From Mesostigma viride (taxonomy: Eukaryota; Streptophyta; Mesostigmatophyceae; Mesostigmatales; Mesostigmataceae): DNA of 64,000 nucleotides. Below the pieces are notes generated by a model. It did not search any database. It was not told the DNA's origin and worked only from the letters and a program-made list of their open reading frames with translations. Each line of letters begins with the position of its first letter. The stretch's first letter is position 1. Position numbers and translations under genes: made by a program. The stretch lies in NCBI GenBank assembly GCA_009746045.1, contig RPFO01000078.1:1645107-1709106 (forward strand). Direction: 5' to 3'. Below are positions 1,010 to 39,340 of this stretch, one piece after another.

Positions 1010-1754
1010 CCGCAATTTCTCCTCCCCACTCCCAACCTCGGCGTTCCCCTGAGACTCTGTCTCATCTCCCCCTTTCTTCCTCTGGATGCAGCAAGACAGA
1101 GGAAAGCATACTCGTTCAAAAAGTTTAGGGTCACTCTGCGAAATGACCCTCCATAAATTAATCACACATGCGAAGGAAACGGCAACTCAGAAATGAAGGA
1201 CAAATGAACAAAGAACAAAGGCGAAAAACACAGGATTACTTATCGCTCACCTCCGTTGTTGTCCCGCTCTTCTTGGGATCCTCTGACTTCTTTTCGTCTG
1301 CCCCCCGCTTCCTCTGAAATCAAAACAACAGGGAAAAGCATACTTGTTGGTTCAGGTTAGGGTCACTCTGCGAAATGACCCATTCATGGTCAGACGAGCT
1401 TAGCAGAGATAAGGAATAACGAATCCGTTAAAAAAAACACGCACACTAATAATGGGGGTAAAAACTGTTTCTCACCTGAGACGGCTCCGTACCCTCCTTC
1501 TCCGAGACCCCCGCGGTCTTCCCATCCACCTCCGTCGACTTTTCTGCAGCCTGCGCCTTCCTGCGCTCCTCCTCAAGTTTGGCTTGGTATTTCAGGCGTG
1601 CCGCCACACCCGCCTCCATCATCCTCTTCCCCTCCTCCTGCACCTTCCTCTTCGCCTTTGCCTCCTCGTCCTTCTTTTTCCTTTCCTCATTCGCCTTTCT
1701 CTCCTTTTCGTCCCGCTCCCACGACGCCCTCCTCTTGTCGCGTTTGCGTGCCAT
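1010..1754 (-). CDS. Lys/Glu-rich predicted coiled-coil protein, 5' exons
   Basis: I do not recognise a family. The start ATG is at 1754 and exon 1 (1754-1476, 93 codons) encodes MARKRDKRRASWERDEKERK and then almost continuous Lys/Glu/Arg/Ala helix. Exon 2 (1313-1251, 21 codons) and exon 3 (1081-1010, 24 codons) both open with R-K-(R/K)-G and continue polar and acidic. All three donors read GTGAG, the acceptors end in CAG, and every junction is phase 0. Both introns carry the palindrome GGGTCACTCTGCGAAATGACCC-like motif described elsewhere. The gene runs toward the gap at 861-973, so the end is missing. The composition suggests a nuclear or cytoskeletal scaffold, but that is a guess. Exon calling is by eye. 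Confidence 0.6.
1127..1150. repeat. Dispersed short palindrome, intron copy
   Basis: AGGGTCA and TGACCCT arms surround CTCTGCGAAA. It lies in the intron between exons 2 and 3 of the Lys/Glu-rich gene; the next intron holds the same motif at 1359-1382. Confidence 0.75.
1359..1382. repeat. Dispersed short palindrome, intron copy
   Basis: The core is the same 22-base sequence as at 1127-1150 and it lies in the intron between exons 1 and 2 of the same gene. Flanking bases differ, so only the motif is shared. Confidence 0.75.
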
Positions 1755-2441
1755 TATATCCTGGACTGATCATTACCGCTACTTGAATGCATCCACTATC
1801 AGCAGTAATCATTTTTGTGATATGCCACCTCACTATCAGCAGTAATCATTTTTGTGATATGCCACCTCCCCCCCCACTATTTAGCTCACAACAACGTGAG
1901 AGCAAAAAGTGAAAGAAAGGCATCTCACACTAAAGAAGGAAGCCCAAAGAGGGCGTCATTCCAGGCAGCAGCAAAAAAAAAATCCAGCTGCTCAAAGATG
2001 CTTTTCCAGGATCAGCAACAACCTTAACATGCATGCTTTTAAAGGCTTAGCAATAACCCCTTCGATGGCTTTTTACCGGGAAAAGCCTAACCTCTTCAGA
2101 TGCTTTTGAAGGCTAAGCAATAACCTTTTCCTTGTGCTTCCCTGGGTGAAGCAGGAGGAACATCCAGGCTGGCCGGACTGAACCCATCATGGGTTGTTCG
2201 CTCGTTAAAATCCTGTGAGATGCAGGTCACGGACATACTTGGCCGCCGACCTCATGACAGGCAATTCCGTAGCCAGCCAAGTGTAGAATAAAACCATGAT
2301 GCTTTATATATTTGGAAAGCAACCAAACCATTCACATTTAATTTCAAAAGACATCGACAAGAATACAAGTGTTGTCTAGTCGTATAATGTCGTACTTGTG
2401 CGTCACTGTCCAAATAAGGCTAAGCGGTTCTTGATAACCTA
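1755..2441. other. Region without a supported gene
   Basis: It holds a direct tandem duplication of about 40 bp (around 1790-1870, containing CAGTAATCATTTTTGTGATA twice) and A-rich sequence. It is presumably the upstream region of the gene starting at 1754. No other coding potential is convincing. Confidence 0.5.
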
Positions 2442-4529
2442 GCAGGCCTCGGGTGACGCCACACTGCTCCGCTTGGCTTACGGCTGGCAGTGTCCTTTAG
2501 CGCCCCCTATCCTGTCTACCTATCCCGCTCACCCCAGCTATGGCTCACTGGCCAACGACGACCGGGTTCCTTCCCGAGTCTCGCCCACAATACGCACATC
2601 ATCTTGACGAAACCAAACAGTTATCACTTCCGTCAACCAATCTCATGACAATTACTCATTGCAACCACTCTCGGGGGCTGCTCCGGATTGTTCCACTATT
2701 AAACCCCTTGACGACAACACCAAGTTGTGAGGGAGAGTAACGAGCGAACAACGACCACCATGGCCGCTGCTGTGCTCCTAAATACCTCCAAAAATCCCGG
2801 CATCCATGCGCTGTCGCATTTGCCAGCAAGCCGCCTGACGTGCAGTTAGACTGCCAGCAAAATGCAGAGCAAATCTGTTCGACAGCCACGTGCGAGCCAA
2901 CACACCGCACACTACGATCTGCGTATCTAGCTTTGTCAGATGGACTGAACATCATTCCGTCTGGACAATACAAAAGATTCATAACTGCCAAATGTCACGC
3001 ACCGGAATATTGCGCAAGCCACCAAGGCTTTGCGCCCCAAAGTCTTGCGCCCGAACCTAAGTCAGGTCACCTAAGACTGTCACTCTAGAAATTCAGGTCT
3101 TTCCGGCGCGGCGCTCCACACCGGCCCAAGGAACAAAGCCTGCGGCCTACTGAATCGGAACCAACCAAACGTCGGACGTAACGATTCCGATTACGGCAAT
3201 CGCGTAACTTCTTGAGTGCACGGACGTAAATGATCACGGACGTGACACTCTTCCTGCGCTCCGCCTCCTCCATCTCCGCAGCTTCAATTTCTGCCTGCTT
3301 CGCCTCTCGCTCTGCCCTTTCCTTCTTCACCCATTCCCTCTGCTCCCTTTCCAGGAGCTCCTGGGCGGCCTTCCGTTCCTTGTCCTTTTTCTCCAGATTC
3401 ACCAGATCTTCGGCGTGCTGCGTTGCCTGATCCAGATAAGAAGTCAGAAGTGCCATGCGGTCATTCCTTCTCTTTCTTTCCTCCTCCGGAAGATCCTCCA
3501 GTGGCCTTGGGTCTGCCTTGTCCCTGTCCTCCATGCTGATCAGGAGGTCAATGTTCTTCTGCAGATCACGCAGGAACCGCTCATGGTCATCCTCCTTCTC
3601 CTCCCATTCCGCTCTTGCTTTCTTTCTTGCCTGTGGGGAGCGGCTCCTCGGAGGTGAGTTTGACGACCGGCGCTTGGGTGGCGACCGGCGCTTGGGCGGA
3701 GACTTCCGACCTGGAGATTTTGCAGGCGACTTTTGCGGTGATCGGGACTTGGAGGTCGCCCCCTTCTTTGGAGGGGAGCTTTGGGGAGACGCGGGCTGCG
3801 AGCTGGGCTGTGAGGTCGACGCCTCGGGTAGGGACCTTGAAGGAGACCTGGGCGACGTGCTGACCTTCGAGGTCGAAGCCTCGTGGTGGGACCTTAGAGG
3901 TGACTTGGGCGGCGGGCTGCCCTGCTCAGACGCCTCGTGGTGGGCCCTTGGAGAAGACTTGGGCGGCGAGCTGGGCTTCGAGGTAACCACCTCGACGGGG
4001 GCGGACCTCGGCGAGTTTGAGGTCGACTTCCCGCGGACGGGGGACTCCTTGTTGATGGCGGGCCGCTGGGGAGACTGTGGAGACACAACGGAGCTGGACC
4101 CAGCCCCGGCAGCCTGTGCCTCAGGTGCGGGCCGCTGAGGAGACTGTGGAGACACAACGGAGCTGGACCCAGCCCCGGCAGCCTGTGCCTCAGGTGCGGG
4201 CCGCTTGGGAGATTTTGAGGCCGACGCCTCCACGGAGCTTGGCCCAGCCCCGGCAGCAAGCATTGTTGACAGAGGAGGAAACTCCTCTACGCCCTTGGGC
4301 GGAGAGGCGGGTGGCGTACTATAAGTTAGGTTAATATTGTGCGGAAACCTTTTTGCCACTTGGGCTTCTCAGGTTCCGCACAATATTACCGGCGATAACC
4401 ACTCGCCGGACACTCAAGTTCACACCGGTGTGAACTTGAGTGTCCGGCGAGTGGTTATCGCCGGTAATATTGTGCGGAACCTGAGAAGCCCAAGTGGCAA
4501 AAAGGTTTCCGCACAATATTAACCTAACT

Positions 4530-4764
4530 AAAACCTAGCCTCTTGGGGCGAGGACGAATCACTAGGCTCGGAACACCCGTATGCATGAATATGATCGAAT
4601 ATAAGCATCTCGTTGGTGCAAATATCGATATGAATATGATCGAATATGAGCATCTCCTTGGTGCGCATATGATTAGAGCCGGGTGCCAAATCGGAACGAA
4701 TTATTCCCCAAATAATCCGCTTCCGAGTGGATTCGAACCTGCGCCCCGCAAGGATCCAGGTCTT
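4530..4764 (-). repeat. Foldback spacer, copy 1, with a Pol III B-box-like site
   Basis: This 235-bp spacer is the same as 4969-5203. On the minus strand it contains GGTTCGAATCC near 4730, a perfect match to the tRNA/SINE B-box consensus, but the flanks do not form a T-arm and no A box or tRNA fold is seen. It also holds two ~45-bp direct repeats around ATGAATATGATCGAATAT. Confidence 0.7.
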
Positions 4765-4968
4765 AGTTAGGTTAATATTGTGCGGAAACCTTTTGCCACT
4801 TGGGCTTCTCAGGTTCCGCACAATATTACCGGCGATAACCACTCGCCGGACACTCAAGTTCACACCGGTGTGAACTTGAGTGTCCGGCGAGTGGTTATCG
4901 CCGGTAATATTGTGCGGAACCTGAGAAGCCCAAGTGGCAAAAGGTTTCCGCACAATATTAACCTAACT

Positions 4969-5203
4969 AAAACCTAGCCTCTTGGGGCGAGGACGAATCA
5001 CTAGGCTCGGAACACCCGTATGCATGAATATGATCGAATATAAGCATCTCGTTGGTGCAAATATCGATATGAATATGATCGAATATGAGCATCTCCTTGG
5101 TGCGCATATGATTAGAGCCGGGTGCCAAATCGGAACGAATTATTCCCCAAATAATCCGCTTCCGAGTGGATTCGAACCTGCGCCCCGCAAGGATCCAGGT
5201 CTT
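4969..5203 (-). repeat. Foldback spacer, copy 2
   Basis: I see no base difference from 4530-4764. Identity of spacers and palindromes implies recent amplification or ongoing homogenisation. Confidence 0.7.
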
Positions 5204-5625
5204 AGTTAGGTTAATATTGTGCGGAAACCTTTTTGCCACTTGGGCTTCTCAGGTTCCGCACAATATTACCGGCGATAACCACTCGCCGGACACTCAAGTT
5301 CACACCGGTGTGAACTTGAGTGTCCGGCGAGTGGTTATCGCCGGTAATATTGTGCGGAACCTGAGAAGCCCAAGTGGCAAAAAGGTTTCCGCACAATATT
5401 AACCTAACTCTATACTTAGGAGACTCGCTCGTCGACTTGACCTTGTCGACATAGGTGGCCCTCTCCACCTCTTTTCCCTTCTGAAGCAAGGAGGCCCTCT
5501 CCTGCTCCTCCTTTTCCTTCTGAAGCTGAACTTCCCTCTCCTTCTCTTGTTCCTTCTGCCGCAAATAAGGAAAAACAAATAGACCAATGTCGGATGAAGA
5601 AAGTGTAAATTCGCATCAGCGTGAG

Positions 5626-5647: not shown

Positions 5648-5808
5648 TAAGAAGAAACAAGGATGAAATCCCATTCAGGTTTGGGGAAAAAAAAATCGAA
5701 GATGTAACTGATGTCAGGGAAGGGGTTATTCTGTAGCGAGACCCTTCCGCAAAATAAGATATAAGAACCATGTTAAGGAACCAACAAAATATAGCATAAA
5801 ATATTTCA

Positions 5809-6355
5809 TGGAAGGGTGACTCGGCAGCGCGACCTTCAAACAAATTGTGATTGATAAACGTATCTGGAATAGGTGACTCGGCAGCGCGACCTTACAACAA
5901 AATGTGATTGAATAACGTATCTTGGAAAGGTGACTCTGCAGCGCTACCCTACAAACAAAATGTTATTGAATAACGTATCTGGAAAGGGTGACTCTGCATC
6001 GCGACCCTACAACCAAAATGTGATTGAATAACGTATCTTGGAAAGGTGACTCTGCAGCGCGACCCTACAAACAAAATGTTATTGAATAACGTGTCTTGGA
6101 AAGGTGACTCTGCAGCGCGACCCTACAAACAAAATGTTATTGAATAACGTATCTTGGAAAGGTGACTCTGTAGCGCGACCCTACAAACAAAATGTTATTG
6201 AATAACGCATCTTGGAAAGGTGACTCTGCAGCGCGACCCTACAAACACTGAATGGAAGTTTGCATTGTGAGGGGGTCACTCTGCAGCGCGACCCTACAAA
6301 CAAAGACTGCGACATTGCGCAAGGGTAGGGGTCACTCTGCAGAGCGACCCTACCC
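5809..6355. repeat. Tandem array of ~58-60-bp units built around the short palindrome
   Basis: About eight regular units and two divergent ones are present. Each contains AGGTGACTCTGCAGCGCGAC followed by CCTACAAACAAAATGTTATT and GAATAACGTATCTTGG. ATGTTATTGAATAACGTAT is a second small palindrome within the unit. The last copies (around 6271 and 6328) match the palindrome consensus best and lose the spacer. No coding potential is seen. Confidence 0.85.
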
Positions 6356-6390
6356 AAAAACAATACTGACCACTCCCCAAAAAAATCACG

Positions 6391-8985
6391 CATGGATGGT
6401 GGTGGTGGGTGGCTGGCATGCATGGATGGTGGTGGTGGGTGGCTGGCATGCATGGATGGTGGTGGTGGGGTGCTGGCATGCATGGATGGTGGTGGTGGGT
6501 GGCTGGCACGCATGGATGGTGGTGGTGGGTGGCTGGCACGCATGGATGGTGGTGGTGGGTGGCTGGCATGCATGGATGATGGTGGTGGGTGGCTGGCATG
6601 CATGGATGGTGGTGGTGGGGTGCTGGCACGCATGGATGGTGGTGGTGGGGGGCTGGCACGCATGGATGATGGTGGTGGGTGGCTGGCATGCATGGATGGT
6701 GGTGGTGGGGTGCTGGCACGCATGGATGGTGGTGGTGGGGTGCTGGCACGCATGGATGATGGTGGTGGGTGGCTGGCATGCATGGATGGTGGTGGTGGGG
6801 TGCTGGCACGCATGGATGGTGGTGGTGGGGTGCTGGCATGCATGGATGGTGGTGGTGGGGTGCTGGCATGCATGGATGGTGGTGGTGGGGTGCTGGCATG
6901 CATGGATGGTGGTGGTGGGTGGCTGGCACGCATGGATGGTGGTGGTGGGTGGCTGGCATGCATGGATGATGGTGGTGGGTGGCTGGCATGCATGGATGGT
7001 GGTGGTGGGGTGCTGGCACGCATGGATGGTGGTGGTGGGGGGCTGGCACGCATGGATGATGGTGGTGGGTGGCTGGCATGCATGGATGGTGGTGGTGGGG
7101 TGCTGGCACGCATGGATGGTGGTGGTGGGGGCTGGCACGCATGGATGATGGTGGTGGGTGGCTGGCATGCATGGATGTTGGTGGTGGGGTGCTGGCACGC
7201 ATGGATGGTGGTGGTGGGGTGCTGGCATGCATGGATGGTGGTGGTGGGGTGCTGGCATGCATGGATGGTGGTGGTGGGGTGCTGGCATGCATGGATGGTG
7301 GTGGTGGGGTGCTGGCATGCATGGATGGTGGTGGTGGGGTGCTGGCACGCATGGATGATGGTGGTGGGGTGCTGGCATGCATGGATGGTGGTGGTGGGTG
7401 GCTGGCATGCATGGATGGTGGTGGTGGGTGGCTGGCACGCATGGATGGTGGTGGTGGGTGGCTGGCATGCATGGATGGTGGTGGTGGGGTGCTGGCATGC
7501 ATGGATGGTGGTGGTGGGGTGCTGGCACGCATGGATGATGGTGGTGGGTGGCTGGCATGCATGGATGGTGGTGGTGGGTGGCTGGCACGCATGGATGGTG
7601 GTGGTGGGGTGGTGGCACGCATGGATGGTGGTGGTGGGGTGCTGGCATGCATGGATGGTGGTGGTGGGTGGCTGGCATGCATGGATGGTGGTGGTGGGGT
7701 GCTGGCACGCATGGATGGTGGTGGTGGGGTGCTGGCACGCATGGATGGTGGTGGTGGGGTGCTGGCATGCATGGATGGTGGTGGTGGGTGGCTGGCACGC
7801 ATGGATGATGGTGGTGGGGTGCTGGCATGCATGGATGATGGTGGTGGGGTGCTGGCACGCATGGATGGTGGTGGTGGGGTGCTGGCATGCATGGATGGTG
7901 GTGGTGGGTGGCTGGCACGCATGGATGATGGTGGTGGGGTGCTGGCATGCATGGATGGTGGTGGTGGGGTGCTGGCACGCATGGATGGTGGTGGTGGGGT
8001 GCTGGCACGCATGGATGATGGTGGTGGGTGGCTGGCATGCATGGATGGTGGTGGTGGGGTGCTGGCACGCATGGATGGTGGTGGTGGGTGGCTGGCACGC
8101 ATGGATGATGGTGGTGGGGTGCTGGCATGCATGGATGGTGGTGGTGGGGTGCTGGCACGCATGGATGGTGGTGGTGGGTGGCTGGCATGCATGGATGGTG
8201 GTGGTGGGGTGCTGGCACGCATGGATGGTGGTGGTGGGTGGCTGGCACGCATGGATGATGGTGGTGGGGTGCTGGCATGCATGGATGATGGTGGTGGGGT
8301 GCTGGCATGCATGGATGGTGGTGGTGGGGTGCTGGCACGCATGGATGGTGGTGGTGGGTGGCTGGCACGCATGGATGATGGTGGTGGGTGGCTGGCATGC
8401 ATGGATGATGGTGGTGGGGTGCTGGCACGCATGGATGGTGGTGGTGGGTGGCTGGCACGCATGGATGATGGTGGTGGGGTGCTGGCATGCATGGATGGTG
8501 GTGGTGGGGTGCTGGCACGCATGGATGGTGGTGGTGGGGTGCTGGCATGCATGGATGGTGGTGGTGGGGGCTGGCACGCATGGATGATGGTGGTGGGGTG
8601 CTGGCACGCATGGATGGTGGTGGTGGGGTGCTGGCATGCATGGATGATGGTGGTGGGGTGCTGGCACGCATGGATGATGGTGGTGGGTGGCTGGCATGCA
8701 TGGATGGTGGTGGTGGGTGGCTGGCACGCATGGATGATGGTGGTGGGTGCTGGCATGCATGGATGGTGGTGGTGGGGTGCTGGCACGCATGGATGATGGT
8801 GGTGGGTGGCTGGCATGCATGGATGGTGGTGGTGGGGTGCTGGCACGCATGGATGGTGGTGGTGGGTGGCTGGCACGCATGGATGATGGTGGTGGGGTGC
8901 TGGCATGCATGGATGGTGGTGGTGGGTGGCTGGCACGCATGGATGATGGTGGTGGGGTGCTGGCATGCATGGATGGTGGTGGTGG
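6391..8985. repeat. 30-bp G-rich minisatellite, about 86 copies
   Basis: The unit is CATGGATGGTGGTGGTGGGK followed by KGCTGGCAYG. Copies differ mainly at three sites: GATGGTGG or GATGATGG, GGGTGGC or GGGGTGC, and GCATG or GCACG. Near 7126, 8570 and 8745 there are 29-bp units. Because 30 is divisible by three and the unit lacks stops, several frames on both strands are open for up to ~1,000 codons. These are a by-product of the repeat. The G-rich strand could form G-quadruplexes. Confidence 0.95.
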
Positions 8986-8986
8986 A

Positions 8987-9268
8987 CATATCGCTGGCTG
9001 AGGACCAACACGAAAAAAGAAGCCATATCGCTGGCTGAGGACCAACACGAAAAAAGAAAACATATCGCTGGCTGACGACCAACACGAAAAAAGAAAACAT
9101 ATCGCTGGCTGACGACCAACACGAAAAAAGAAAACATATCGCTGGCTGAGGACCAACACGAAAAAAGAAAACATTTAGCTGGCTTAGGACCAACACGAAA
9201 AAAGAAAACATTTAGCTGGCAGAGGACCAATACGAAAAAATACTCTGGTCGCTCGCTGAGGACCAACT
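8987..9268. repeat. ~37-bp satellite array A
   Basis: About eight copies of CATATCGCTGGCTGAGGACC followed by AACACGAAAAAAGAAAA are seen. The last copies change CATATCGC to CATTTAGC. It abuts the 30-bp minisatellite and ends about 40 bp before the Harbinger element. The same unit forms a second array at 15,969-16,217. Confidence 0.9.
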
Positions 9269-9638: not shown

Positions 9639-11052
9639 ATGTCTCTCCAGTCGCACCTGTTGCGAAAGTCAGTTGAGGACAAGATTGACAAGGAGGACAT
9701 AGAAGATTGGCAAGATTTGGCCATGATGTCTACACGTCCAGGAAAGCAGGCAAGGTACACTTCTCCGGGTGTGGTACATGTGTTCAGTCCCTACGTGAGT
9801 CGAGCCGGCTTGCCACGAGTGAAAAACGAAAAACGCAAGCGACTTAACCTTGCTATGCAGCTAGATGACATGACCGAAAGCGAGTTCAGGATGCGCTACA
9901 AGATTACCAAAGACAGGTTTCGGGCGGTTGCTGAGAGAATGCGGGAATGCGGCTTGGAACCAAACCATGTGAAGGCGGCAAACAGCAGTGGAACACCGGT
10001 TACCTGCGAAATGAAGCTCGGAGCGTTTCTGCGATGGGCTGCAGGTGGCAGGTAAATTTATTGCGTTCATCAATTAAGCACGCTACGGTCCATTCAGTAG
10101 GCATTTGGAAAGGACAGGTCAGGCGCATTGATACCCTGTTTATGCTGGTTGTAACGTGTGCAGGCACATCGACATCATGGACGTACATGGCCTCCACAAG
10201 GCGACTTTCTACAAAGCTGTCTGGGAAGTCGTGGATTTTATCAACGAGAACTATCACCTGGACTTCCCGACCACGGATGACGGAGGCGACTTGTCAAGTT
10301 TGGCAAACGGCTTCAACAGAACGACCAGAGGAGTTGTTGAAGGATGTGTTGGTGCCATCGATGGCATTGCCATCGAAATAGATAAGCCAGCACAGAGGGA
10401 TGTAGTCAATCCAATGCATTATTACAATCGCAAAGGGTTTTTTGCACTCGTTTTGGAAGCCGTCTGTGATTCCAATTGCAAGTTTTTGTATGGGTCGATG
10501 AAGTGCACAGGCAGTACCCATGATAGCACCGCCTTCCAATGTTCTTCTTTGTACAAGGCGTTAATAGAAAGGGGCTTGCCTGACGGTTTTTTTTTAGTTG
10601 GAGATGAAGCATACGTCATCAAGCCCTGGTTGATCACCCCTTATCCTGGAAGGGGTTTGCCTGTGCAAGAAGATGCCTGTAATTACTACATTTCCCTTTG
10701 CAGGCAGACCATAGAACGTGCGTTTGGGATTTTTGTCGCACGCTTTGGCATCCTTCATCGTGCATTAACGTGCCAGTTGAGGCATGCTTCACGGCTAATA
10801 GGTGCACTTATGCGTGTGCATAATTGGTGCATTGATGATAGGTTTATCCGAGCGGAGGTAGATCCCATCCTTGATCAAAGGAAGGGGGATTGGCCTTTGC
10901 CACATTTTCAAGATAGTTGTGCATTAGGCGGTGTGGGCGCTACTCAAAGGCGTGGCTATAAGGAGGATCGCATCACACGTGATGCCCTCCGTGATTCAAT
11001 AGCAGAAATGGGCTGGGTGCGTCCATCCCACTCTAAGTGGGGACGTACTTAG
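9639..11052 (+). CDS. PIF/Harbinger DDE transposase (433 aa, one intron)
   Basis: The enzyme catalyses cut-and-paste transposition of the surrounding element in the nucleus. The start is the first in-frame ATG, at 9639. Exon 1 is 9639-10051 and exon 2 10164-11052; the 112-bp intron has donor CAG|GTAAAT and acceptor TGTGCAG, and splicing rebuilds an Arg codon. The N-terminal half holds a helical region (RWAAGG-HIDIMDVHGLHK) typical of the helix-turn-helix before the catalytic domain. The DDE_Tnp_4-type triad is visible as D204 (GAIDGIAIE), D285 (VGDEAYVIKPW) and E322 (CRQTIERAFG), with GSTHDSTAF between. The length is normal for the family. No stop or frameshift is seen, so it looks functional. 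Confidence 0.92.
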
Positions 11053-11134
11053 CATAGCTAAGGATGTTTAATGTAATAAATACAATTATTCATCCAAGTT
11101 CAAGCAAGGTGGTGCATGAAAATGTTGAAAATGC

Positions 11135-12416
11135 ATTTGCTTTGCTTTGCTTTGCTTTGCTTTGCTTTGCTTTGCTTTGCTTTGCTTTGCTGTGCTTTGC
11201 TTTGCTTTGCTTTGCTTTGCTTTGCTTTGCTTTGCTTTGCTTTGCTTTGCTTTGCTTTGCTTTGCTTTGCTTTGCTTTGCTTTGCTTTGCTTTGCTTTGC
11301 TTTGCTTTGCTTTGCTTTGCTTTGCTTTGCTTTGCTTTGCTTTGCTTTGCTTTGCTTTGCTTTGCTTTGCTTTGCTTTGCTTTGCTTTGCTTTGCTTTGC
11401 TTTGCTTTGCTTTGCTTTGCTTTGCTTTGCTTTGCTTTGCTTTGCTTTGCTTTGCTTTGCTTTGCTTTGCTTTGCTTTGCTTTGCTTTGCTTTGCTTTGC
11501 TTTGCTTTGCTTTGCTTTGCTTTGCTTTGCTTTGCTTTGCTTTGCTTTGCTTTGCTTTGCTTTGCTTTGCTTTGCTTTGCTTTGCTTTGCTTTGCTTTGC
11601 TTTGCTTTGCTTTGCTTTGCTTTGCTTTGCTTTGCTTTGCTTTGCTTTGCTTTGCTTTGCTTTGCTTTGCTTTGCTTTGCTTTGCTTTGCTTTGCTTTGC
11701 TTTGCTTTGCTTTGCTTTGCTTTGCTTTGCTTTGCTTTGCTTTGCTTTGCTTTGCTTTGCTTTGCTTTGCTTTGCTTTGCTTTGCTTTGCTTTGCTTTGC
11801 TTTGCTTTGCTTTGCTTTGCTTTGCTTTGCTTTGCTTTGCTTTGCTTTGCTTTGCTTTGCTTTGCTTTGCTTTGCTTTGCTTTGCTTTGCTTTGCTTTGC
11901 TTTGCTTTGCTTTGCTTTGCTTTGCTTTGCTTTGCTTTGCTTTGCTTTGCTTTGCTTTGCTTTGCTTTGCTTTGCTTTGCTTTGCTTTGCTTTGCTTTGC
12001 TTTGCTTTGCTTTGCTTTGCTTTGCTTTGCTTTGCTTTGCTTTGCTTTGCTTTGCTTTGCTTTGCTTTGCTTTGCTTTGCTTTGCTTTGCTTTGCTTTGC
12101 TTTGCTTTGCTTTGCTTTGCTTTGCTTTGCTTTGCTTTGCTTTGCTTTGCTTTGCTTTGCTTTGCTTTGCTTTGCTTTGCTTTGCTTTGCTTTGCTTTGC
12201 TTTGCTTTGCTTTGCTTTGCTTTGCTTTGCTTTGCTTTGCTTTGCTTTGCTTGCTTTGCTTTGCTTTGCTTTGCTTTGCTTTGCTTTGCTTTGCTTTGCT
12301 TTGCTTTGCTTTGCTTTGCTTTGCTTTGCTTTGCTTTGCTTTGCCTTGCCTTGCCTTGCCTGGCCTGGCCTGGCCTGGCCTTGCATTGCTTTGCCTCCCC
12401 TCCCCTCCCCTCCCCT
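11135..12416. repeat. (TTTGC)n array inside the Harbinger element
   Basis: About 240 nearly perfect TTTGC units run to about 12,345, with one T-to-G change near 11,191 and one short unit near 12,251. They grade into TTGCC, CTGGC and CCCCT variants to 12,416. Open frames of FALLC or KQSKA repeats on both strands are artefacts. The array separates the 3' ends of the two convergent transposon genes. Confidence 0.97.
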
Positions 12417-12425
12417 CCTATCATA

Positions 12426-12487
12426 TTAAGTGAGACAACTAGGCCTGGACGCATGGCGTACCAACGTCATATATATGTCTCACTTAA
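12426..12487. mobile_element. 62-bp miniature TIR element, TA target duplication
   Basis: TTAAGTGAGACA at the left and its exact complement TGTCTCACTTAA at the right are flanked by TA on both sides. It sits inside the Harbinger element just after the pentanucleotide array. Its end resembles those of the elements at 36,478, 43,491 and 44,206. Confidence 0.65.
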
Positions 12488-17063: not shown

Positions 17064-19376
17064 TAAAAAATTAAATTAAATTAAATTATAACATGCCTCC
17101 GTGGGGAGGTCATGTAGCACATATTCCATGATGGATGGGGTGGAGGAAGCCGCGTGATCGAACTATACTAACGCTAGGCTATCTAGAAAATCCTAACTAC
17201 ACTACTCATCAAAACGCCTCCTCCGCTTGGGGGGAGGTGGCTTGCCCACAGGGTCGGGCGTGTGCGCCTTGACAATCTTCTTCCACCGCGTCTTGTCCTG
17301 CATGACAGTCCAAAGACGGGAGAGAGAGTGTATGCGGTGCTCAAACTGGGCTGGGACCACTAGGTCGTCCAGCAACATCTGAACGTAGTTGGTGACAGGT
17401 TTCCCTACCCTTTTGGGAATGTCCGCGGGGCCAGGCCAGGTCAGAATATGCCGCCCTGGCTGGCCAAGCCGCTGGGGGCCGGCCAGACCAAGGGTGGTGT
17501 CGACCTGGCTAGTGCGGGCAAGGTGTCCTACAAATGCTATCCTACGCTGCCTAATCTCGTCCGAAACACGAGGCATGCCATGATACAAAGACTCTGATGA
17601 CGGACGCTCGGAAAAACCTACGTTAAGGACCTGCCGGAGCATCCTGTAAACTGTGCCGTCGAGCCGAGCTGCCAGTTTGGGTGGGAGGGTCCACGCCTCG
17701 GCGCCATACGTGAGCACCGTGAGGACGAGGACCTTGAAGAGCATGCGTTTGCGGTGCCCGTCCAGGCCCTTCGAGCGCCAGTAAGGTGTGAGCGAACGGA
17801 GCTTGGCCCAGGCGAGGGCGATGCGGGTGTCCACATCGTCGTCGGTGTCGGGAAGCCAGCTCCCCAACAGCTTGAAGCGGTCGCGGAACGGGACCTCCGT
17901 CCCGTCGAGCAGGCGCGGCAGCGGTGGTTTACTGGAGGCCCCTATCACCATCGCCTCAGTCTTGACACTAATCTCCAACCCCACCGCCCGCGCCTCCAGG
18001 CCCAGGCAGTCCAGCCAGGTCTGAATGTGCTCGGGGCTCTCGATGAGGGTGGTGTCATCCGCATAAATCAGGTCGGCAAGGCGGTAACCAGGTCTAACCC
18101 CGCCGTGCTCTTTCACGTTAAGGATGTCCAAGCCTGGCTCGAACCCCTTAAGAGCAGTAAAGCGCGCACGTGCCCGGCGCATGACGTGATCCACGACAAT
18201 AATGAACAGGTATGGGGACAGGACACAACCTTGCCACACCCCGTGGTGAAGGGGGAATGGTGGAGTGGTGCCCTCCGCAGTCCGCACTACTGCCTGTGAG
18301 CCCTCATACAGTCGGCGAATGGCAGCAATAAACGCAGGTGGTACCTGATCCAGAGCTAGGATGGCCCAAAGAGCCTCCCAGAGAACCGTGTCAAAGGCCT
18401 TGATATAGTCAACAAAAATGAAGACCAGCGGCAAACTGTCAGGGGGAAGTCGACGCACCTCCTCCATCAACCGGCGCGCGACAAACACAGCCATGACAGT
18501 GTTACGACCACTACGGAAACCCATCTGAGACTCACCCAGGTGTGGGTCCAGCGCGGCGCGGAGCCTGTGCAGCATCATGCGCATGAAGACCTTCAGCGCG
18601 GCGCTCTGGAGGCAGACACCCCGGTAGTTGCCGGGGTCAGCAGCAGAGCCCTTCTTGTACAGCATGACGCGGATGGCCGTCTGCCACTCAGCAGGCGGAG
18701 GCTCGTCAGAGAGCAGGACACGGTTGCAGAACGCCAGCAGAAGATCCCTAACCGCCAGATCAGGGGTCTTCAGCAGCTCAGCAGAAAGGTGGTCGGCACC
18801 GACCGCTGCATCGTACCGCAGACGAGCAAGGGCGCCGTCCAATTCCTCCAAAGTGAAGGGGTGGACGACGTCGTCAGTGGCAAGGCAGCCCTCCTTCAAG
18901 GCGGGGACTTGGTAGTCCGCGGCCGAGGAGGGGGGCGCCGGTGGCGGCGGGGGTCCGGCGACCCCGAGGCGGGCGGCCGTCTCGGGGTGCAGCGGCGGGG
19001 GGGGGGCGCGAGCCCCACCGGTCAAGGAAACATTGTGGGCCAACCAGCGGTCAAGGCTTACCGGCGCCGTGCCGTCCCCCGTATGCTCCACCGGGGTGCG
19101 CTGCCGCCGGCCGCCGAGCCGGTCGAGGTGGTACCACATGTCCTTGCCCTGGTTGCGGGCCTGGCAGGCCTTGGCATCCGCGATGCACTGGGCCGCCTCC
19201 GCGTCCTGAGCGTGCTCGTAGGCCTCCACAAGGGCGGCCTTGAGCGATGGTTTCTGCAGCGGGTCCCGGTTACGCTTGAGGCGGTGCCGGGCGGCCAAGA
19301 CCTTGGGGTCCTGGCGGTAGAGCGGGCCGGGGCGGCGGCGAGGCATGACCGGCAGGTGCCGGGCCGCCAGCAGCGG
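17064..19376 (-). mobile_element. 5'-truncated LINE-type retrotransposon
   Basis: It is flanked by a 10-bp target duplication ATACTAACAT (17054-17063 and 19377-19386). On the minus strand it ends in a (TTTAA)n tail preceded by a hairpin (CCTCC-CCAC-GGAGG, 17096-17109). It carries the reverse transcriptase part but neither ORF1 nor the endonuclease, as expected from incomplete target-primed reverse transcription. Its close relative is at 38,013-39,340. Confidence 0.92.
17202..19346 (-). CDS. LINE reverse transcriptase, N-terminally truncated (714 aa)
   Basis: This is the reverse transcriptase of a non-LTR element, which copies element RNA into a nicked chromosomal target. The frame is open from the element's 5' junction to the stop at 17,202. 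Visible RT motifs in order are DPGNYRGVCLQS (~238-249), QMGFRSGRNTV (~274-284), FVDYIKAFD (311-319, first catalytic Asp), GVWQGCVLSPYLF (369-381) and YADD (428-431, catalytic pair). GHLARTSQVD and a Lys/Arg/Pro-rich end follow. The catalytic residues are intact but the endonuclease is absent, so it is unlikely to move on its own. The true start is lost. Confidence 0.9.
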   Translation of the reverse strand: MPRRRPGPLYRQDPKVLAARHRLKRNRDPLQKPSLKAALVEAYEHAQDAEAAQCIADAKACQARNQGKDMWYHLDRLGGRRQRTPVEHTGDGTAPVSLDRWLAHNVSLTGGARAPPPPLHPETAARLGVAGPPPPPAPPSSAADYQVPALKEGCLATDDVVHPFTLEELDGALARLRYDAAVGADHLSAELLKTPDLAVRDLLLAFCNRVLLSDEPPPAEWQTAIRVMLYKKGSAADPGNYRGVCLQSAALKVFMRMMLHRLRAALDPHLGESQMGFRSGRNTVMAVFVARRLMEEVRRLPPDSLPLVFIFVDYIKAFDTVLWEALWAILALDQVPPAFIAAIRRLYEGSQAVVRTAEGTTPPFPLHHGVWQGCVLSPYLFIIVVDHVMRRARARFTALKGFEPGLDILNVKEHGGVRPGYRLADLIYADDTTLIESPEHIQTWLDCLGLEARAVGLEISVKTEAMVIGASSKPPLPRLLDGTEVPFRDRFKLLGSWLPDTDDDVDTRIALAWAKLRSLTPYWRSKGLDGHRKRMLFKVLVLTVLTYGAEAWTLPPKLAARLDGTVYRMLRQVLNVGFSERPSSESLYHGMPRVSDEIRQRRIAFVGHLARTSQVDTTLGLAGPQRLGQPGRHILTWPGPADIPKRVGKPVTNYVQMLLDDLVVPAQFEHRIHSLSRLWTVMQDKTRWKKIVKAHTPDPVGKPPPPKRRRRFDE

Positions 19377-19386
19377 ATACTAACAT

Positions 19387-20215: not shown

Positions 20216-23200
20216 CACGGGAACGGGTGTTTCTTTCGCCAACCTCCTCCTCCTTGCGTGGCGGCTTTGCTAATCGACTCAATGCCCACAACTTGAGCAT
20301 CGGGACACCGACGCCCCTTGCAGCGGATCTGAAAAACAGCTCGAAACGAAATTTCGGGAATGAGAACCGCAGCACCTCGCCCGCCGTCAGGAAGCCAGCG
20401 AAAAGGCCTGGCCAGTACGCCGAGAAGAAGTCTGTTGTGGGGACTCATCTTGCTGATGAGGCGTACAACGTAGTTCATCACATGAGGAATGAATCTACCA
20501 AGCGGGCCTCTTTTGAGGAGATTGTTGATGGCTTCAATAAGAGGGCTGACGAGCTCAAGGCGGAGCATTTTGACATTCCGGTGGCCAAGCTTTTGATGAG
20601 CAGCGGCTTGCACAACTGTCGAGGTCTTGGGTGGCTCGGCTGATCGCCCTTTTTGACGACCTGTCGAAATCCGACCATGACAGAGACGTCAAGATCATTT
20701 TGGTGTCAACTCTTTTTTGTGGGGACGACATCGAGAAGGAGTTTTCGGCGGCAGAGTTGGAGAGAATGACGGGTGTCCCCGCGAAGACCATTCTCAAAGT
20801 TCGGGCGATCAGAAAGCAACAGAAGATGGAGTTCCTGACGCGTGCGCTGGCGCGAAAGAAGAGGAAGTTGCCCCAATTTGTAATCGAGTCGATCGCGCAG
20901 GCTTGGACTGATGAGGAGAACTCGCGCGCTTCGCCCCAAGAGAGGGATACCATAAAGACGCACGAACGAGTTGGCAATCGTGCGATTTTGGTTGGTGTCC
21001 AAGGGGCCTACTTCTACCTCACCTCGAAGGAGGACATATATCTCAAGTTTTTAGCGGAGCACACGTACTGGGACAAGAAAAGTCCGCAGTATGAGAAGGA
21101 TGTCGGCATCCATGTCGGATATACGACTTTCTGCAAGTACGCCCCCAAAACCGTCAAGGGGAAGTGGAAGGAGAGAAACGTGTGCGCCTGTGAGACGCAT
21201 ACGGTCATGCAGTCGAAGGTAGCGGCATGGACTAGGTACTGCAAGGCGAAGCACGGCAAGAACTGCAAGTGCGGCGACGAGTGTGAGGGATGTTTAAGGG
21301 CGAGATTGCCTGACGGCACGTGCGGGATGTTCGAAAGCCTGCACACGACCGAATGGGTGAAGCACTTCCATTGCCGTGTGGCGGAGGCGGATGGGGGTAG
21401 TGAGCTGGGGGGTGGGGCAAACTCGGCGAGAAACGAAGAGGAGGAGGGGACAATAATGTGACGGAAGATGAATGGCAGGGGCAAGACCTTGACGATCTTG
21501 AAATAAATGAGAGGATCGTGGAGGATGAGGAAGGGGTGCCAAGGGTAGGGGACCCATCCATGGAGGAGGGGTCTGTCTTTCGCATTCTGAAGAGGGCATG
21601 TATGGAGAACTCGTGTCCCGAGTCCCGGTGTGGCATCAAAGACTGGGTGTTGTGTGACCGGGACAAGAATTCAACAGAACTACTAAATTGGTTCAGATAC
21701 GTGAAGAAGGAGGTAGTGGTTTCCCGACCGGCAGGGGAGGTAAGCGTGTTTGGATTTTGTGACGCAATTATTTCGCAGCGTCATTCTGCAGCGCGATGTT
21801 AATTTAAAGGCTTTTCTGATACTTTATGAATATGTTACTTGCAAATTTACTTCATCCCTTGGTTAAAACAGGACGCGACCGATCGGCGGGTCCCGGAGAA
21901 GGTCAAGCGGCCCGTACAGGAAACGATGAGGTCAACGCCCGCGCAGCTGAGGCTGGCGATTATCGAGAGTTGGGAGGACTTTACCAACCACTGCTTTACG
22001 TCATGGTGGCAGTCGGCAACGATCAAGGACCGGGAGAGGAACATGACTGAGGGGGATGTGCTCGTGCATGGAGATTGGGCCGAGAATTACGAGAACAACA
22101 ACTACGTCCAACTGCAGTCGCAGTACTTTCACAAGACGAGCTTTGTCCTCATGCCCATGATCGTGCGATATTTGCACAATGGTGCGATGGCAAAGCGAAC
22201 GTTCTTTTTTCTCGGGGAAGCCAAGATGAAGCGGGGAGAGCGGGCGCTCGTCTACGCGCTGAGGACAATCATGGAAACCCTGCGCGGACTTGGTGTGGGG
22301 GTGAAGAGGATGTTCATGTGCTCTGACAACTGCTCATCCCAGTTCAAGTCCAAGTACGTGGTTAACGCCGTCTTCCGCCTCCTCATGCAGGATCCCGACT
22401 TGGAATCCTTCGAGTACCACTACTTGGGTGAGCAGCACGGGAAGGGGGAGGTGGATGGTCAGGGAGCGAAGTTCAAGTGCATTGTGAGGAACATGCAATG
22501 CATTCCTGAGAACCAGGGCATCGTTACAGGGCGCCAGATCGTCAAGTACATGCGGGACAGCTGGGAAGGAGGCAAAACCACGAGCAGGGAGTCGGCCCGC
22601 GCTCGGGCAGAGGGCGTCCACCGTCATTTCTTTCATTTTCCTGAGGTGCGAAACTCAATTTTTCTTGAACTTGATTGAGGTATCTCTGCAGAGTGACCTT
22701 TTGCCCATTTGCATTTTATTATTTGATAATGCTAAAAGAACTGGTATGAATTAGCGTCTTATATAGTGAAAAATGCATGCAAAGCACTTTCAAAGGGGTA
22801 TCTCTGCAGAGTGACCCTTCATGTGTACTTGATCTATTGACACATACCAACTTTCCGTTTCTGACATTCTCCCTCATTGCAGGACCTCGACTCCGGCGCC
22901 CGTATGATACCGACGCGTGTCGAGGCCATCAAGCAAGCGCACTGGTGGCGCCTGGACAAGTCTGACCCGGGGCTCCTGATGATGAGGCGTTTTTCGTGCT
23001 ACTGCCCAGCCTGCCTAGCTAACAGGTGGGAGGAGTGCCGGACCGAGTGGACACATATCGAGGAATTTAACGATGAGGGCCAAACGATGAAAACTTTCCG
23101 CCTGATGCCGCCAACGCAGCCCATACCTCCGGTTCGCCAGCTGACGCGGGCGGAACTGCTGAAGGATCAAAGGGATGCCATTGGCAGGCAGATGCGCATG

Positions 23201-23626
23201 TATGATTACATCGCAGTTCCGTCAGACAGAGAGGACGTGAACCACAATTCCGCCCACCCTTTTTGGGTGATGCAGGTGGTGAGGGAGGCCTCAGTGCTGG
23301 AGAAGGAGGAGGTTAGGTGGGTTGAGGGACAAAACGGACGGCAGAAGGAGATTTTCTTGCCCGGCCACGCCGTTCTGGCGGTTCGGCTGTGGAAGCGAGA
23401 TATGCATGACCCCCTGCATTTTACTCTGGATTTGGCTGATTGGCCGGAGTCCCGCCCAGCCGACCTGGTCGATTGCTATCTGTGCATCTCCGCTGCTCTT
23501 CCGCTCCAGTGCATGGTCCTTGGCAACCAAAGGCAAGCCTACGTTGATATGAGCAAGGAGCTTGACGCGTGGCTAACCGCTCTTGTACGCAACCAGCAAG
23601 CCCCGGAGGGGCTGCCACCGGCTTAA
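20216..23626 (+). CDS. DDE-like transposase of a family common in animal genomes
   Basis: Exons are 20216-21739, 21872-22645 and 22883-23626; both introns (132 and 237 bp) are GT-AG and phase 0. The acceptor TTTCTGCAG at 20,215 implies a 5' exon I could not place. Motifs in order: SRASPQERDT; HVGYTTFCKYAPK with NVCACETH; a Cys cluster (CKCGDECEGC); HGDWAENY (candidate first Asp); CSDNCSSQFKSKY (second Asp); EQHGKGEVDGQGAKFK; and a late CYCPACLANRWEEC finger. I recognise this order from uncharacterised transposase-like proteins in fish, arthropods and cnidarians; catalysis is inferred. Two one-base deletions break the frame, near 20,594 and near 21,445 in a G-rich run; restoring one base at each joins consistent protein, so they may be sequencing errors. 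Intron 2 holds two short palindromes. Confidence 0.75.
22678..22700. repeat. Dispersed short palindrome, intron copy
   Basis: AGGTATCTCTGCAGAGTGACC lies in intron 2 of the DDE-like gene, about 30 bp past the donor. A second copy is at 22,794-22,818 in the same intron. Confidence 0.75.
22794..22818. repeat. Dispersed short palindrome, intron copy
   Basis: GGGTATCTCTGCAGAGTGAC plus CC lies about 65 bp before the acceptor at 22,882 and shares the core of the upstream copy. Confidence 0.75.
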
Positions 23627-32637: not shown

Positions 32638-35600
32638 ACAAGCCCCTTTCCATCCTCATGTCGCACCGTGCGAGCATGATCAGGATGCAAGGTCGCCAGG
32701 CACGCCACGGTCAACCTTCCCGCCAATTTACCAGCCTCACACGCCTCCTAGCCCGCCTTGAGCGGGATGAGGCCCAGTCGACACGCCGGCGACCCCAGCC
32801 AGGACGGAGACGACGCATATCCGTCCTGAAAGAAAGCCTCCATGCGTTGACAAGCATTAACCCCAATCGCCACCCTCCCCCTCCCCCCCCCACCCCCACC
32901 CCCACCTCCAGCACTACCCTTCTCCACCCCCACCCCCACCCCCACCCCCCCGCTAATAGGGCAACGGCCCATTCTTGGCATTGCAAGTTTTAACGTGCGC
33001 ACCCTCCCTGCAGATCCTTCTACGAGCGGCGGCACCCCAGCACGCCAACGCGTCGACGAGCTGATCGCCCTGTGCGCCGACAACAAGATCGCTGTTCTTG
33101 GAGTCCAGGAGCACCGACGCACCGTTGACCCTCAGCACGCGGTCAACGGTCTGCTGGTCGACGACCTGCGGGCAGGCTGGCGGTTCCACTATGGTGGCGG
33201 CGACGCGCCGGGCCAAGGTGGTGTGGGCCTCTTGTGCTCGCCGGCAGCATCAGAGCAGCTCCAGTCCATCGTGCTGCGGTCCCCGCGTGTGCTAGTGGCC
33301 ACTTTTTCGGCCACTGAGGGCCATTCACACCACACGCTAACCGTTATCGTGGGATATGCACCACATGCGGGTCGAGCTCAGGCGGAACGTGAGGCCTTCT
33401 TCGACGCCCTCAAGGAGGAGGAGGCCAACATCCAGCTCGGCACTTCCTGGTTATGCTGCTCGACGCCAACGCCACGCTGCCAGTTGGCACTGGGGGCGCT
33501 CAGTATTCCCCAACCAACACGACAGCCAACGGTAACACGCCTTTATTTGCGAATCTGCTGGCAGAATCTGCGCTGGTTGCATGCAATGCTTCTTTCGCAC
33601 GCCCCGCTGAGCAGCTGGCCACCTTTTTTGGGCCGTCGGATCGGGTGGTGTGCCTTGATTATGTCTGCGTACGTCGGGCTCAGCGCCCCTCAGTTGTCGA
33701 TGCTCGCGTCCTGCAAGATTCTGTCAGCACGGTGGAATCTGATCATCGTCTCGTGCTCGCTCGCATCAGATTGCGGTTTCCTGGGGTGAAACCGTCGCGA
33801 CAGCTGGCACCTCAGCCAGATCTGAAAGTGCTCCGGATTGTGCTGAAGGATGCCGACAAGATGTCAGCAGCAGAGCAGGCCGCTATGTCGCACAGGGATG
33901 ATTTCCTGGCCGTATTCGACGCCGGGGGCAGCCGACAGCAGTTACACGCCATTCCGCCGCCGGGGGATATTTCAGTGATCCTCCGTGGTGTCGCCGCCAA
34001 GTATCGCCTGGCTGCCCGCACCCTCCCCACCTTGCCTCCGCGTCGGCAGCTTGCTGTCCACCGTCACGCACCGACAGTGGTCGCCGCCAGGCAGATGCTC
34101 CGCCGCAACAGAGATCCGATCGCCAAACCTGGGCTGCAAGCAGCTCTGAGGGCCGCCTACGAGCAGGCTGAGAAGGCAGATGCTCAGCAGATGGTCAAGG
34201 ACCTGCGCAGCTGCCAGCAGAAGCACGACGGCAAGGGGGCCTGGTTCTGGTACAAGCGCCTCGGGCACCCGGACGGCCTCGGCCGGCCCCACCGCCACGA
34301 CGTCCCCGGCGCCCCAGCCAAGCGGCTTCGTACCTGGGCCACGGCCACGGCCGAGGTCGTGGGGACAGCTGCGCCGCCCCCACCCCTGCTCCCAGCCGCC
34401 GCCGCCCGCCCGGCCGCCCTGGCCGGCCCCGCAGGGCCCCCGGCCCCGCCTAGGTCAGCGGCGGACTACCTAGTCCCCCCGCTGGTCGGCCCACTTGGCG
34501 ACCCGTCTGACATGCCTCCTTTCACCTCTCGCGAGGTCACGGAGGCGGTCCAGCGCCTGCGTTATGACGCAGCCACCGGCTCTGACGAGATTCCGGCCGC
34601 AGTTGTAAAACTTGCAGCCGAATTCGAGGACACAGGTGTTATGCTGCTCTTCCGGGACATCTGCAACCGCCTTCTGCTGTCGTCGCAACCACCTCCAGCG
34701 GCCTGGCAACACAGTTTTCGCACGATGCTGTACAAGAACAAGGGGTCGCCTGCCGACCCCGGCAACTACAGAGGGGTGTGCATTCAAAGTGCCCCCCTCA
34801 AGCTTCTTATGCGGCTCATCCTGAACCGCCTGCGCACGGCCCTGGACGGTCACCTCAGCGAGACTCAGCACGGCTTCCGTTCAGGTCGCAACACAGTACA
34901 GGCGCTCTTCGCTACTCGCCGACTGGTGGAGGAACTGCAACGCCTTCAGCCTGGTGAGTCCCCTTTGCACCTTGTGCTGGTGGACTTCATCAAAGCCTTC
35001 GATTCGGTTTTCTGGCCTGCGCTTTGGGACATCCTCGAGTTGTTCCGGATCCCCCGCCCCCTGATTGCTGTCATCCGCAACCTGTATGAAGGGTCCACCA
35101 CTTCGGTGCGCACTTCTTACGGGACCACGCCCCCATGCCCTTTACAGAAGGGTGTGTGGCAGGGCTGCGTGCTGTCGCCCTACCTGTTCATTATTGTTGT
35201 CGAATACGTAATGATTCAGGCGCGCAAGCGATTTGCCCGCATCGTGGGCAGGGAACCAGGAGTGCAGGTTGCTAACAAATTCTGGCATGGCGGTGCGGAC
35301 ACGGAGATTCGGCTAGCAGACATCATTTACGCAGACGACACCACCCTCTTCGAGGACACTGAGCACGTGCAGACATGGCTTGACTGCCTGGCTCTCGAGG
35401 CCCGTGCAGTGGGGCTTGAGGTCAGCAAGAAGACAGAGGCCCTGGCGGTTGGGCTCACCAACTCAGCGCCGCCCCTCTATCTCCTAGACGGCTCTCGAGT
35501 CCTGTATCGGGACCGCGTTAAGCTGCTGGGCAGCCTGCTCCCTAGCTGCGAGGTTGATGTGGACCACCGCATCTCCCTCGCCTGGCACGCTTTACGCCAG

Positions 35601-36155
35601 TACCGGGCCCTGTGGCGCAAGCCCCTGGGCAAGATCGAGAAACAGGACCTGTTCAAGGTCCTCGTCCTTCCTGTTCTCACGTATGGCGCCGAGACGTGGA
35701 CCCTCACCGCCGACCTGGCCCGCAAGCTGGACGGCGCGGTCACCAGCATGCTGCGTTCCATTTTCAGAGTAGGATATGCTGCTCATGTCCGCAATGAGGA
35801 CCTGTACCAGGGCATGCCCTATATCACCAGCACAATTAAGCAACGCCGCCTGCAGCTAGTAGGGCACCTAGCTCGCACCAACCAGGTAGACACCTCACGT
35901 GGCCCCCCCGCAGGACTGCGACCAGCCCAGCCTGGCCGGCACCTCCTGACGTGGGCTGGGCCCAGTGATGTTAGACGCCGCAAGGCCCGCACCTTCAAGG
36001 AACAGCTAGTAGAGGACATGGGGGGCCTAGGCCTCTCCGTGATTTGGAAGAAGATGATGGACAAGGCCAAGTGGGCCCAGGTCATAGAGGACAACGAGCC
36101 CCCCCCAGTGGGGAAGCGCCCGCGTGTGCAATCCCGCGGGAGGCACGCTAGATAG
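32638..36155 (+). pseudogene. LINE ORF2: AP endonuclease plus reverse transcriptase, frameshifted
   Basis: The protein nicks the target and reverse-transcribes. As sequenced it needs two frame corrections. An ATG at 32,638 opens one frame to 32,993. Endonuclease motifs (ILGIASFNVRTL, then GVQEHRR) are in a second frame with no ATG, probably after a slip in the C-rich run at 32,873-32,952. The endonuclease continues in the next frame from ~33,450 (MLLDANATLPVG with D-x-N, then ESDHRLVLARIRL), and this frame stays open to 36,155. RT motifs are complete: NYRGVCIQS, HGFRSGRNTV, LVDFIKAFDS, GVWQGCVLSPYLF and YADDTTLF. The catalytic residues are intact. Both breaks may be homopolymer errors, in which case the element could be active. 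Confidence 0.85.
32873..32952 (+). repeat. CCCCCAC-rich simple repeat within LINE ORF2
   Basis: C-runs of up to 9 alternate with CCCCCACC units just before the endonuclease. It is a likely place for the frame slip noted for ORF2. Confidence 0.85.
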
Positions 36156-38012: not shown

Positions 38013-39340
38013 TTAAATTAAATTAAATTAAATTATAACATGCCTCCGTGGGGAGATCATGTACAGCACATATTCCATGATGGATGGGGTGGGGGAAGCC
38101 GCGTAATCGAACTATCCTAACTCTAAGCTATCTAGTCTAGAAATCCTCACTACACTACTCATCAAAACGCCTCCTCCGCTTGGGGGGAGGGGGCTTGCCC
38201 ACAGGGTCGGGCGTGTGCGCCTTGACAATCTTCTTCCACCGCGTCTTGTCCTGCATGGCAGTCCAAAGACGGGAGAGAGAGTGGATGCGGTACTCAAACT
38301 GGGCCGGGACCACTAGGTCGTCCAGCAACATCTGGGTGTAGTTCGTGACAGGTTTCCCTACCCTTTTGGGAATGCCCTCTGGGCCAGGCCAGGTCAGAAT
38401 GTGTCGCCCTGGCTGGCCAAGCCGCTGGGGGCCGGCCAGACCAAGGGCGGTGTCGACCTGGCTGGTGCGAGCAAGGTGTCCTACAAATGCTATCCTACGC
38501 TGCCTAATCTCGTCCGAAATACGAGGCATGCCATGATACAAAGACTCTGATGACGGACGCTCTGAAAAACCTACGTTAAGGACCTGTCGGAGCATCCTGT
38601 AAACCGTGCCGTCTAGCCTAGCTGCCAGTTTGGGTGTGAGTGTCCACGCCTCGGCGCCATACGAGAGCACCGTGAGGACGAGGACCTTGAAGAGCATGCG
38701 CTTGCGGTGCTCGCCCAGGCCCTTCGAGCGCCAGTAGGTGTTGAGCGAACGGAGCTTGGCCCAGGAAAGGCCCATGCGGGTGTCCACATCGTCGGCAGTG
38801 TCACCTGGGAGCCAACTCCCCAACAGCTTGAAGCGGTCGCGGAACGGGACCGTCGTCCCGTCGAGCAGGCGCGGCAGCGGTGGTGCACTAGAGGCCCCAA
38901 TCACCATCGCCTCAGTTTTGACACTAATCTCCAGCCCCACCGCCCGTGCCTCCAGGCCCAGACAGTCCAGCCAGGTCTGAATGTGCTCGGGGCTCTCGAT
39001 GAGGGTGGTGTCATCCGCATAAATCAGGTCGGCATTGCGGTAACCAGGTCTAACCCCGCCGTGCTCTTTCACGTTAAGGATGTCCAGGCCAGGCTCGAAC
39101 CCCTTAAGAGCAGTAAAGCGCGCACGTGCCCGGCGCATGACGTGATCCACGACAATAATGAACAGGTATGGGGACAGGACACAACCTTGCCACACCCCGT
39201 GGTGAAGGGGGAATGGTGGAGTGGTGCCTTCCACAGTCCGCACTACTGCCTGTGAGCCCTCATACAGTCGGCGAATGGCAATAAACGCAGGTGGTACCCG
39301 ATCCAGAGCTAGGATGGCCCAAAGAGCCTCCCAGAGGATA
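38013..39340 (-). mobile_element. 5'-truncated LINE, sister of 17,064-19,376
   Basis: The 3' UTR, hairpin (38043-38056; CTCC-CCAC-GGAG with a T/G closing pair) and (TTTAA)n tail match the 17-kb copy. The element stops at about 39,340, inside the reverse transcriptase just after the FVDYIKAFD position. I did not find an unambiguous target duplication. Confidence 0.85.
38155..39340 (-). pseudogene. LINE reverse transcriptase fragment
   Basis: The frame starts at the truncation (ILWEALWAILALDRVPPAFI) and lacks the first catalytic Asp motif. It keeps WQGCVLSPYLF, LIYADDTTLIES and the C-terminal GHLARTSQVD region to the stop at 38,155. It is very close in sequence to the 17-kb copy, with one in-frame codon loss (FIAIRRL versus FIAAIRRL). 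By chance the frame stays open upstream into unrelated DNA to 39,438. It cannot be active. Confidence 0.88.

Follow-up and report, generated by a model that had tools for sequence, protein, structure and literature searches.

A probable dimeric foldback/MITE-like element with perfectly palindromic terminal repeats interrupts a reading frame in Mesostigma viride

Results and Discussion

Architecture of the block

The 1086-bp block at 4324-5409 of the 64-kb window (the whole stretch of Mesostigma viride DNA analysed here) is probably a dimeric, non-autonomous foldback/MITE-like DNA element, of the basic form P-S-P (palindrome, spacer, palindrome), whose palindromes would be kept perfect by copying from arm to arm and which was inserted with a 5-bp duplication. 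The block is laid out as P1-S1-P2-S2-P3 (Table 1). Each of P1, P2 and P3 equals its own reverse complement with no mismatch and no loop, as a sequence-only reading of this DNA had described, and the two 235-bp spacers that it called identical are so from end to end. That reading was right on the structure and slightly off on the measures: the palindromes are 206, 204 and 206 bp long rather than about 205, and their starts lie 441 and then 439 apart by coordinates rather than 440, with the repeat families in ungapped register giving 440 and 440.

P1 and P3 have the same sequence, in direct and inverted orientation alike, because P is self-complementary. P2 differs from both in having T4/A4 for T5/A5, which makes each of its arms one base shorter. 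That the same one-base change is found in both arms of P2 hints at copying from arm to arm, with the caution that the difference sits in a homopolymer (T/A) run. Errors of long-read consensus sequences concentrate in such runs.

P1, P2 and P3 (arms 103-104) are the sole exact palindromes of the 64-kb window when arms of 12 or more and loops of 8 or less are considered, and the largest loopless arm in five mononucleotide shuffles of the window did not exceed 10; the three palindromes are therefore not due to chance. No significant match to the arm or the spacer was found elsewhere in the 64-kb window. The G+C content is 48.5% in the arm and 47.7% in the spacer, against 62.9% and 54.1% in the adjoining exon pieces.

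The element ends read AGTTAGG...CCTAACT, and a copy of CTATA flanks the block at either end, in agreement with the earlier description. As the ends of the element are fixed by the internal P/S boundaries, the 5-bp match amounts to a single test, with a probability by chance of about 1 in 1000 (an arithmetic estimate).

Table 1. Positions of the block, of the host reading frame and of a second transposon in the window
Feature	Positions	Strand	Description
Left TSD copy, CTATA	4319-4323	.	5-bp flanking duplication
P1	4324-4529	.	Exact loopless palindrome, 206 bp; centre 4426/4427
Spacer S1	4530-4764	+	235 bp
P2	4765-4968	.	Exact loopless palindrome, 204 bp; exact symmetry reaches 4763-4970
Spacer S2	4969-5203	+	235 bp; equal to S1, same orientation
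P3	5204-5409	.	Exact loopless palindrome, 206 bp; equal to P1
Right TSD copy, CTATA	5410-5414	.	5-bp flanking duplication
Interrupted host reading frame	3085-5555	-	Lys/Pro/Ser-rich; 3' splice-site-like TTTGCGGCAG ends at 5556 (by eye)
Mutator-like transposon	42138-47343		215-bp terminal inverted repeats, 212/215 identical; 9-10 bp duplication (C)AAACAAATA

The interrupted reading frame

Removal of the block restores a reading frame, as had been claimed: the joined flanks form one open frame on the minus strand (...VDKVKSTSESPKYSTPPASPPKGVEEF...), which passes into ...SPKYSTPPASPPKGVEEF... and then into ...KDLNF and a stop. With the insert in place, the frame continues into P3, where it ends with ...SPSGKKVSAQY and a stop (ORF 5214-5615, minus strand). 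The insert together with one duplication measures 1091 bp, which is not a multiple of three. Judged from this frame, the insertion shifts and stops the host sequence, so that this copy of the gene is probably inactivated. No Pfam match was obtained for the host protein in the two pieces searched. The surroundings look eukaryotic, since the 64-kb window carries reverse-transcriptase ORFs, a DDE_Tnp_4 ORF and a GT29 exon.

Folding of the arms and anatomy of the spacer

The further inverted repeat that had been noticed in each arm was recovered by folding with DNA parameters, under which each 103-base arm forms two hairpins. One has 18 pairs and one bulged base, with TAATATTGTGCGGAAaCCT paired to its complement and a 3-pair stem within the loop; the other is CCGGCGA-TAACCAC-TCGCCGG. 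A potential third hairpin could form at the palindrome centre, near CACACCGGTGTG. The whole palindrome folds as one straight hairpin under RNA and DNA parameters alike, and the branched cruciform is a possible form in these models, though not the minimum-energy fold.

The two ends of the spacer form a diverged inverted repeat of ~42 bp that adjoins the perfect arms. Among 2000 end pairs shuffled by mononucleotide, one scored as high. When the whole spacer is compared with itself by BLAST, the inverted repeat between its ends receives a weak score (30/42, E 0.40), and it stands out only when the comparison is restricted to both ends. Around P2, the inverted pair 4721-4866/4867-5012 has 146 nt per arm and is 88% complementary, with a perfect inner part and a worn outer one. 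The spacer ends resemble an inverted repeat of greater age that has since diverged, which would favour an inverted-repeat DNA element over one with direct LTRs. The spacer also contains a tandem duplication of ~45 bp. A box-B pattern (GGTTCGANNCC) is found once per spacer copy on the minus strand, at 4739 and 5178, and at one other place in the window (49212, plus strand). About 60 nt upstream of box B on the minus strand, within P, lies a match to a box-A pattern, a loose one with an estimated chance rate of about one per 2 kb per strand (by arithmetic), and nothing is drawn from this match.

A probable dimeric foldback/MITE-like element

The earlier proposal of a mobile foldback-type insertion in a coding stretch is borne out by the perfect terminal repeats, the 5-bp duplication and the restored frame. 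The statement of the sequence-only reading that the block matches no transposon class is overstated, as P-S-P-S-P is the known tandem form, with a shared middle repeat, of elements that have two terminal repeats (PMC11899658, PMC4528315, PMC7215508), and by this comparison the period-440 array need not call for a new class; taken as a whole, its interpretation is partly supported. Two features of foldback/MITE elements are present, namely long terminal inverted repeats (206 bp, P1 against P3) and a target-site duplication (CTATA on both sides). As for a transposase, the element is overlapped by three ORFs of 110 aa or more, which all lie on the minus strand and one of which shares just 45 bases with it, and none has a Pfam match; at that ORF length the element is one without a recognisable gene. 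The 5-bp duplication does not single out any superfamily of DNA transposons, and duplications of this length are typical of LTR elements. The unusual part is the perfect, loopless palindromic terminal repeat, by which the ends are direct and inverted at once. A narrow literature search found no paper on “palindromic terminal” in combination with three other terms, and no occurrence of “palindromic LTR” among 8 listed papers of 513; we do not claim on that basis that such repeats are absent from print.

We propose P-S-P as the basic unit, in which two perfect-palindrome terminal repeats of ~206 bp flank a 235-bp middle and which would be mobilised as a DNA element by a transposase or integrase encoded elsewhere. 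Insertion into the coding stretch with a 5-bp target duplication is seen in the anatomy of the locus. The layout and the identical spacers suggest that the present copy, P-S-P-S-P, is a dimer whose two units have the middle palindrome in common. Unequal recombination between terminal repeats, or slippage from one to another during replication, could have produced it, either ahead of insertion or once the element was in place. Since a palindrome is both a direct and an inverted repeat, recombination of the kind proposed for tandem LTR elements could act on P. The self-complementary terminal repeat can fold as a hairpin or cruciform, and repair or replication through the fold would copy arm from arm, keeping the palindromes perfect. 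The evidence comes from one locus in one assembly, and the 64-kb window holds no P-S-P monomer or autonomous partner.

A bolder form of this proposal, which we regard as conceivable but doubtful, is a family of elements that depends on its palindromic ends. Each end would extrude as a branched cruciform, in which every strand bears a central hairpin and two more per arm; ends would be recognised in this form and copied from arm to arm in each cycle; the palindromes would stay perfect while the spacer drifts, and the units would multiply into P-S-P-S-P arrays.

Alternative explanations

The block could instead be a tandem TRIM/LTR retrotransposon, a reading that we consider unlikely. In its P-S-P-S-P layout and 5-bp duplication the block agrees with published tandem LTR elements and TRIMs, in which three terminal repeats around two middles are known (PMC11899658, PMC4528315, PMC7215508). 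In the published descriptions, rice TLI2 combines three LTRs with two internal regions and has a duplication of 5 nt, and three LTRs are reported in 8 of 89 intact Wukong TRIMs, with 5-bp duplications in most Wukong copies; for Cassandra, intrachromosomal recombination of neighbouring LTRs and template switching are among the mechanisms proposed. Terminal direct repeats and a duplication in the 4-6 bp range, both LTR features, are present here (P1 = P3, CTATA). Behind the 5' repeat, where a primer-binding site would lie, TGG occurs at offset 6 on the minus strand, after the first 6 nt of the spacer, and at offset 14 on the plus strand; the minus-strand spacer also has a box-B-like GGTTCGAATCC, and tRNA-like sequence is described in Helenus TRIMs, though within the LTR. 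Membership in the LTR/TRIM group nevertheless fails because P ends in AGTTAG...CTAACT and not TG...CA, and because the last 30 nt of S, read on either strand, lack a polypurine tract (purine runs there reach 5 on the plus and 6 on the minus strand). The transcript of a palindromic LTR would moreover form a hairpin of ~100 bp, a likely obstacle to reverse transcription, and an LTR element would not be expected to have the diverged inverted repeat found at the spacer ends. Wukong, Cassandra and TLI2 have the same order of repeat, middle, repeat, middle and repeat as the block, but with what are described as ordinary direct-repeat LTRs (with PBS and PPT in Wukong) in place of a perfect palindrome without TG...CA or PPT.

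An artefact of assembly or amplification is distinctly unlikely. Assembly trouble may exist nearby, where positions 1-860 repeat 2441-3304 at 99.3% identity beside a 113-N gap (861-973), as a tandem gene copy or a scaffolding overlap; an artefact, however, would not be expected to end at the internal boundaries with a 5-bp duplication and an open joined frame. Palindromes with internal hairpins, such as P, resemble hairpin telomere junctions, and replication from hairpin ends yields head-to-head dimers. The block could in this light be what is left of a linear replicon or virus whose ends are hairpins, or a satellite of one, such as a non-autonomous Polinton-like element, that a retroviral-type integrase inserted as a concatemer. 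The terminal inverted repeats of Polinton-like viruses are described as long, and their short duplications as 5-6 or ~4-6 bp. We hold this origin to be very unlikely: S1 and S2 have the same orientation, against the head-to-head arrangement expected, and the overlapping ORFs of at least 110 aa gave no Pfam match. Among viral contigs, two patterns gave 0 matches and a 15-mer matched 22 stretches, each with a single match rather than the several that the element would give, which we judge to be chance by an estimate from the size of the collection and not by a computed expectation. There was likewise no match of 4324-4760 to phages, of 4427-4866 to plasmids or of a 22-mer to prokaryote genome contigs (0 matches); the phage, plasmid, viral and prokaryote collections are all ill suited to a eukaryotic transposon, and these misses say little.

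We give least credence to an introner-like element, in which the insertion would be spliced out as an intron. Read by eye, the minus-strand junctions CCTAA/GTATAG...CCTAACTTATAG/TACGCC could delimit a GT-AG intron whose removal drops 6 nt in frame. Introners with duplications of 3-9 bp and inverted repeats are known, some of which take their splice sites from the duplication or change codons (PMC9860276), and in Amoebophrya they are described as having hairpins and direct repeats of 3-5 nt. Like the block, introners with TSD and TIR are non-coding, have a short duplication and inverted repeats, and lie inside coding sequence. The apparent introns of the neighbouring gene, however, start with GTGAG (three read) and end with CAG (two read, the third running into the gap), again by eye, and GTATAG and TATAG are poor matches to GTGAG...CAG; a pyrimidine tract was not seen at these weak candidate sites. 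The insert is, besides, 1.1 kb of strong hairpins, whereas introners are mostly shorter, with family median lengths of 30-654 nt in the published account (PMC9860276).

Comparison with foldback and Mutator-like elements

The dimeric foldback/MITE-like element that we favour has its closest counterparts for comparison in Tetris and Galileo, foldback or foldback-like elements of Drosophila, which are described with long foldback ends. Three complete copies of Tetris are reported to have no conserved ORFs, and the element here has no recognisable gene. The terminal repeats of Tetris and Galileo contain tandem units of ~210-220 bp, whose number has been proposed to vary by unequal exchange; as described, these units are repeated directly within long terminal inverted repeats, and are not palindromes common to two units. 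The duplications also differ in length, at 8-10 bp for Tetris, 7 bp for Galileo and 5 bp here.

The Mutator-like transposon of Table 1 is, like the block, an inverted-repeat DNA transposon of the same genome, but it has a 9-10 bp duplication and GGGTTTTTGG ends. A Mutator origin of the block was rejected: the left end of this transposon and P1+S1 are unrelated, the best match being 11 bases (E 1.6). Within the Mutator-like element, a SWIM zinc-finger match at 46286-46996 on the minus strand scores 18.1 bits, just under the Pfam cut-off of 19.6. The Mutator-like element is enclosed, in a stretch of ~9.6 kb, by the inverted pair 39483-39658/48899-49107, with TTAATTAATTAATTAAAATCATA near both ends.

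Foldbacks that appear as arrays can be dimers of ordinary elements, and annotation tools may split or miss them. A self-complementary terminal repeat, if it is present in other copies, erases the distinction between direct and inverted repeats that underlies transposon classification, and would allow one to test in nature for how long a eukaryotic chromosome retains perfect palindromes; if the copy stands alone, it is no more than a curiosity.

Other searches and contents of the window

A ribozyme or retrozyme-like origin was rejected, as a scan of the window against Rfam at gathering thresholds found 0 matches and the hammerhead core patterns CTGANGA and CTGATGAG had no match in S+P+S. A tRNA-derived element was likewise set aside, ARAGORN having found no tRNA in the window.

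Several other features were observed. Short motifs recur in the apparent introns of the neighbouring genes: GGGTCATTTCGCAGAGTGACCC in two introns of the first (1120-1420, minus strand), and a tandem unit with GGGTCGCGCTGCAGAGTCACC in the second (5780-6260, minus strand). Long minisatellites at ~6240-9200 and 11000-12430, with 30-bp and 10-bp units, are open in several frames. Three consecutive long ORFs at 20574-23623 (plus strand) appear transposase-like by eye (SDNCSSQFKS..., GKGEVDGQGAKFK), the first two being without a Pfam match. LINE-like reverse-transcriptase frames, both with an RVT_1 match, are found at 17205-19379 (minus strand) and 33393-36152 (plus strand), and two further LINE-like frames, at 38155-39474 (minus strand) and 49354-50851 (plus strand), look related to this pair by eye.
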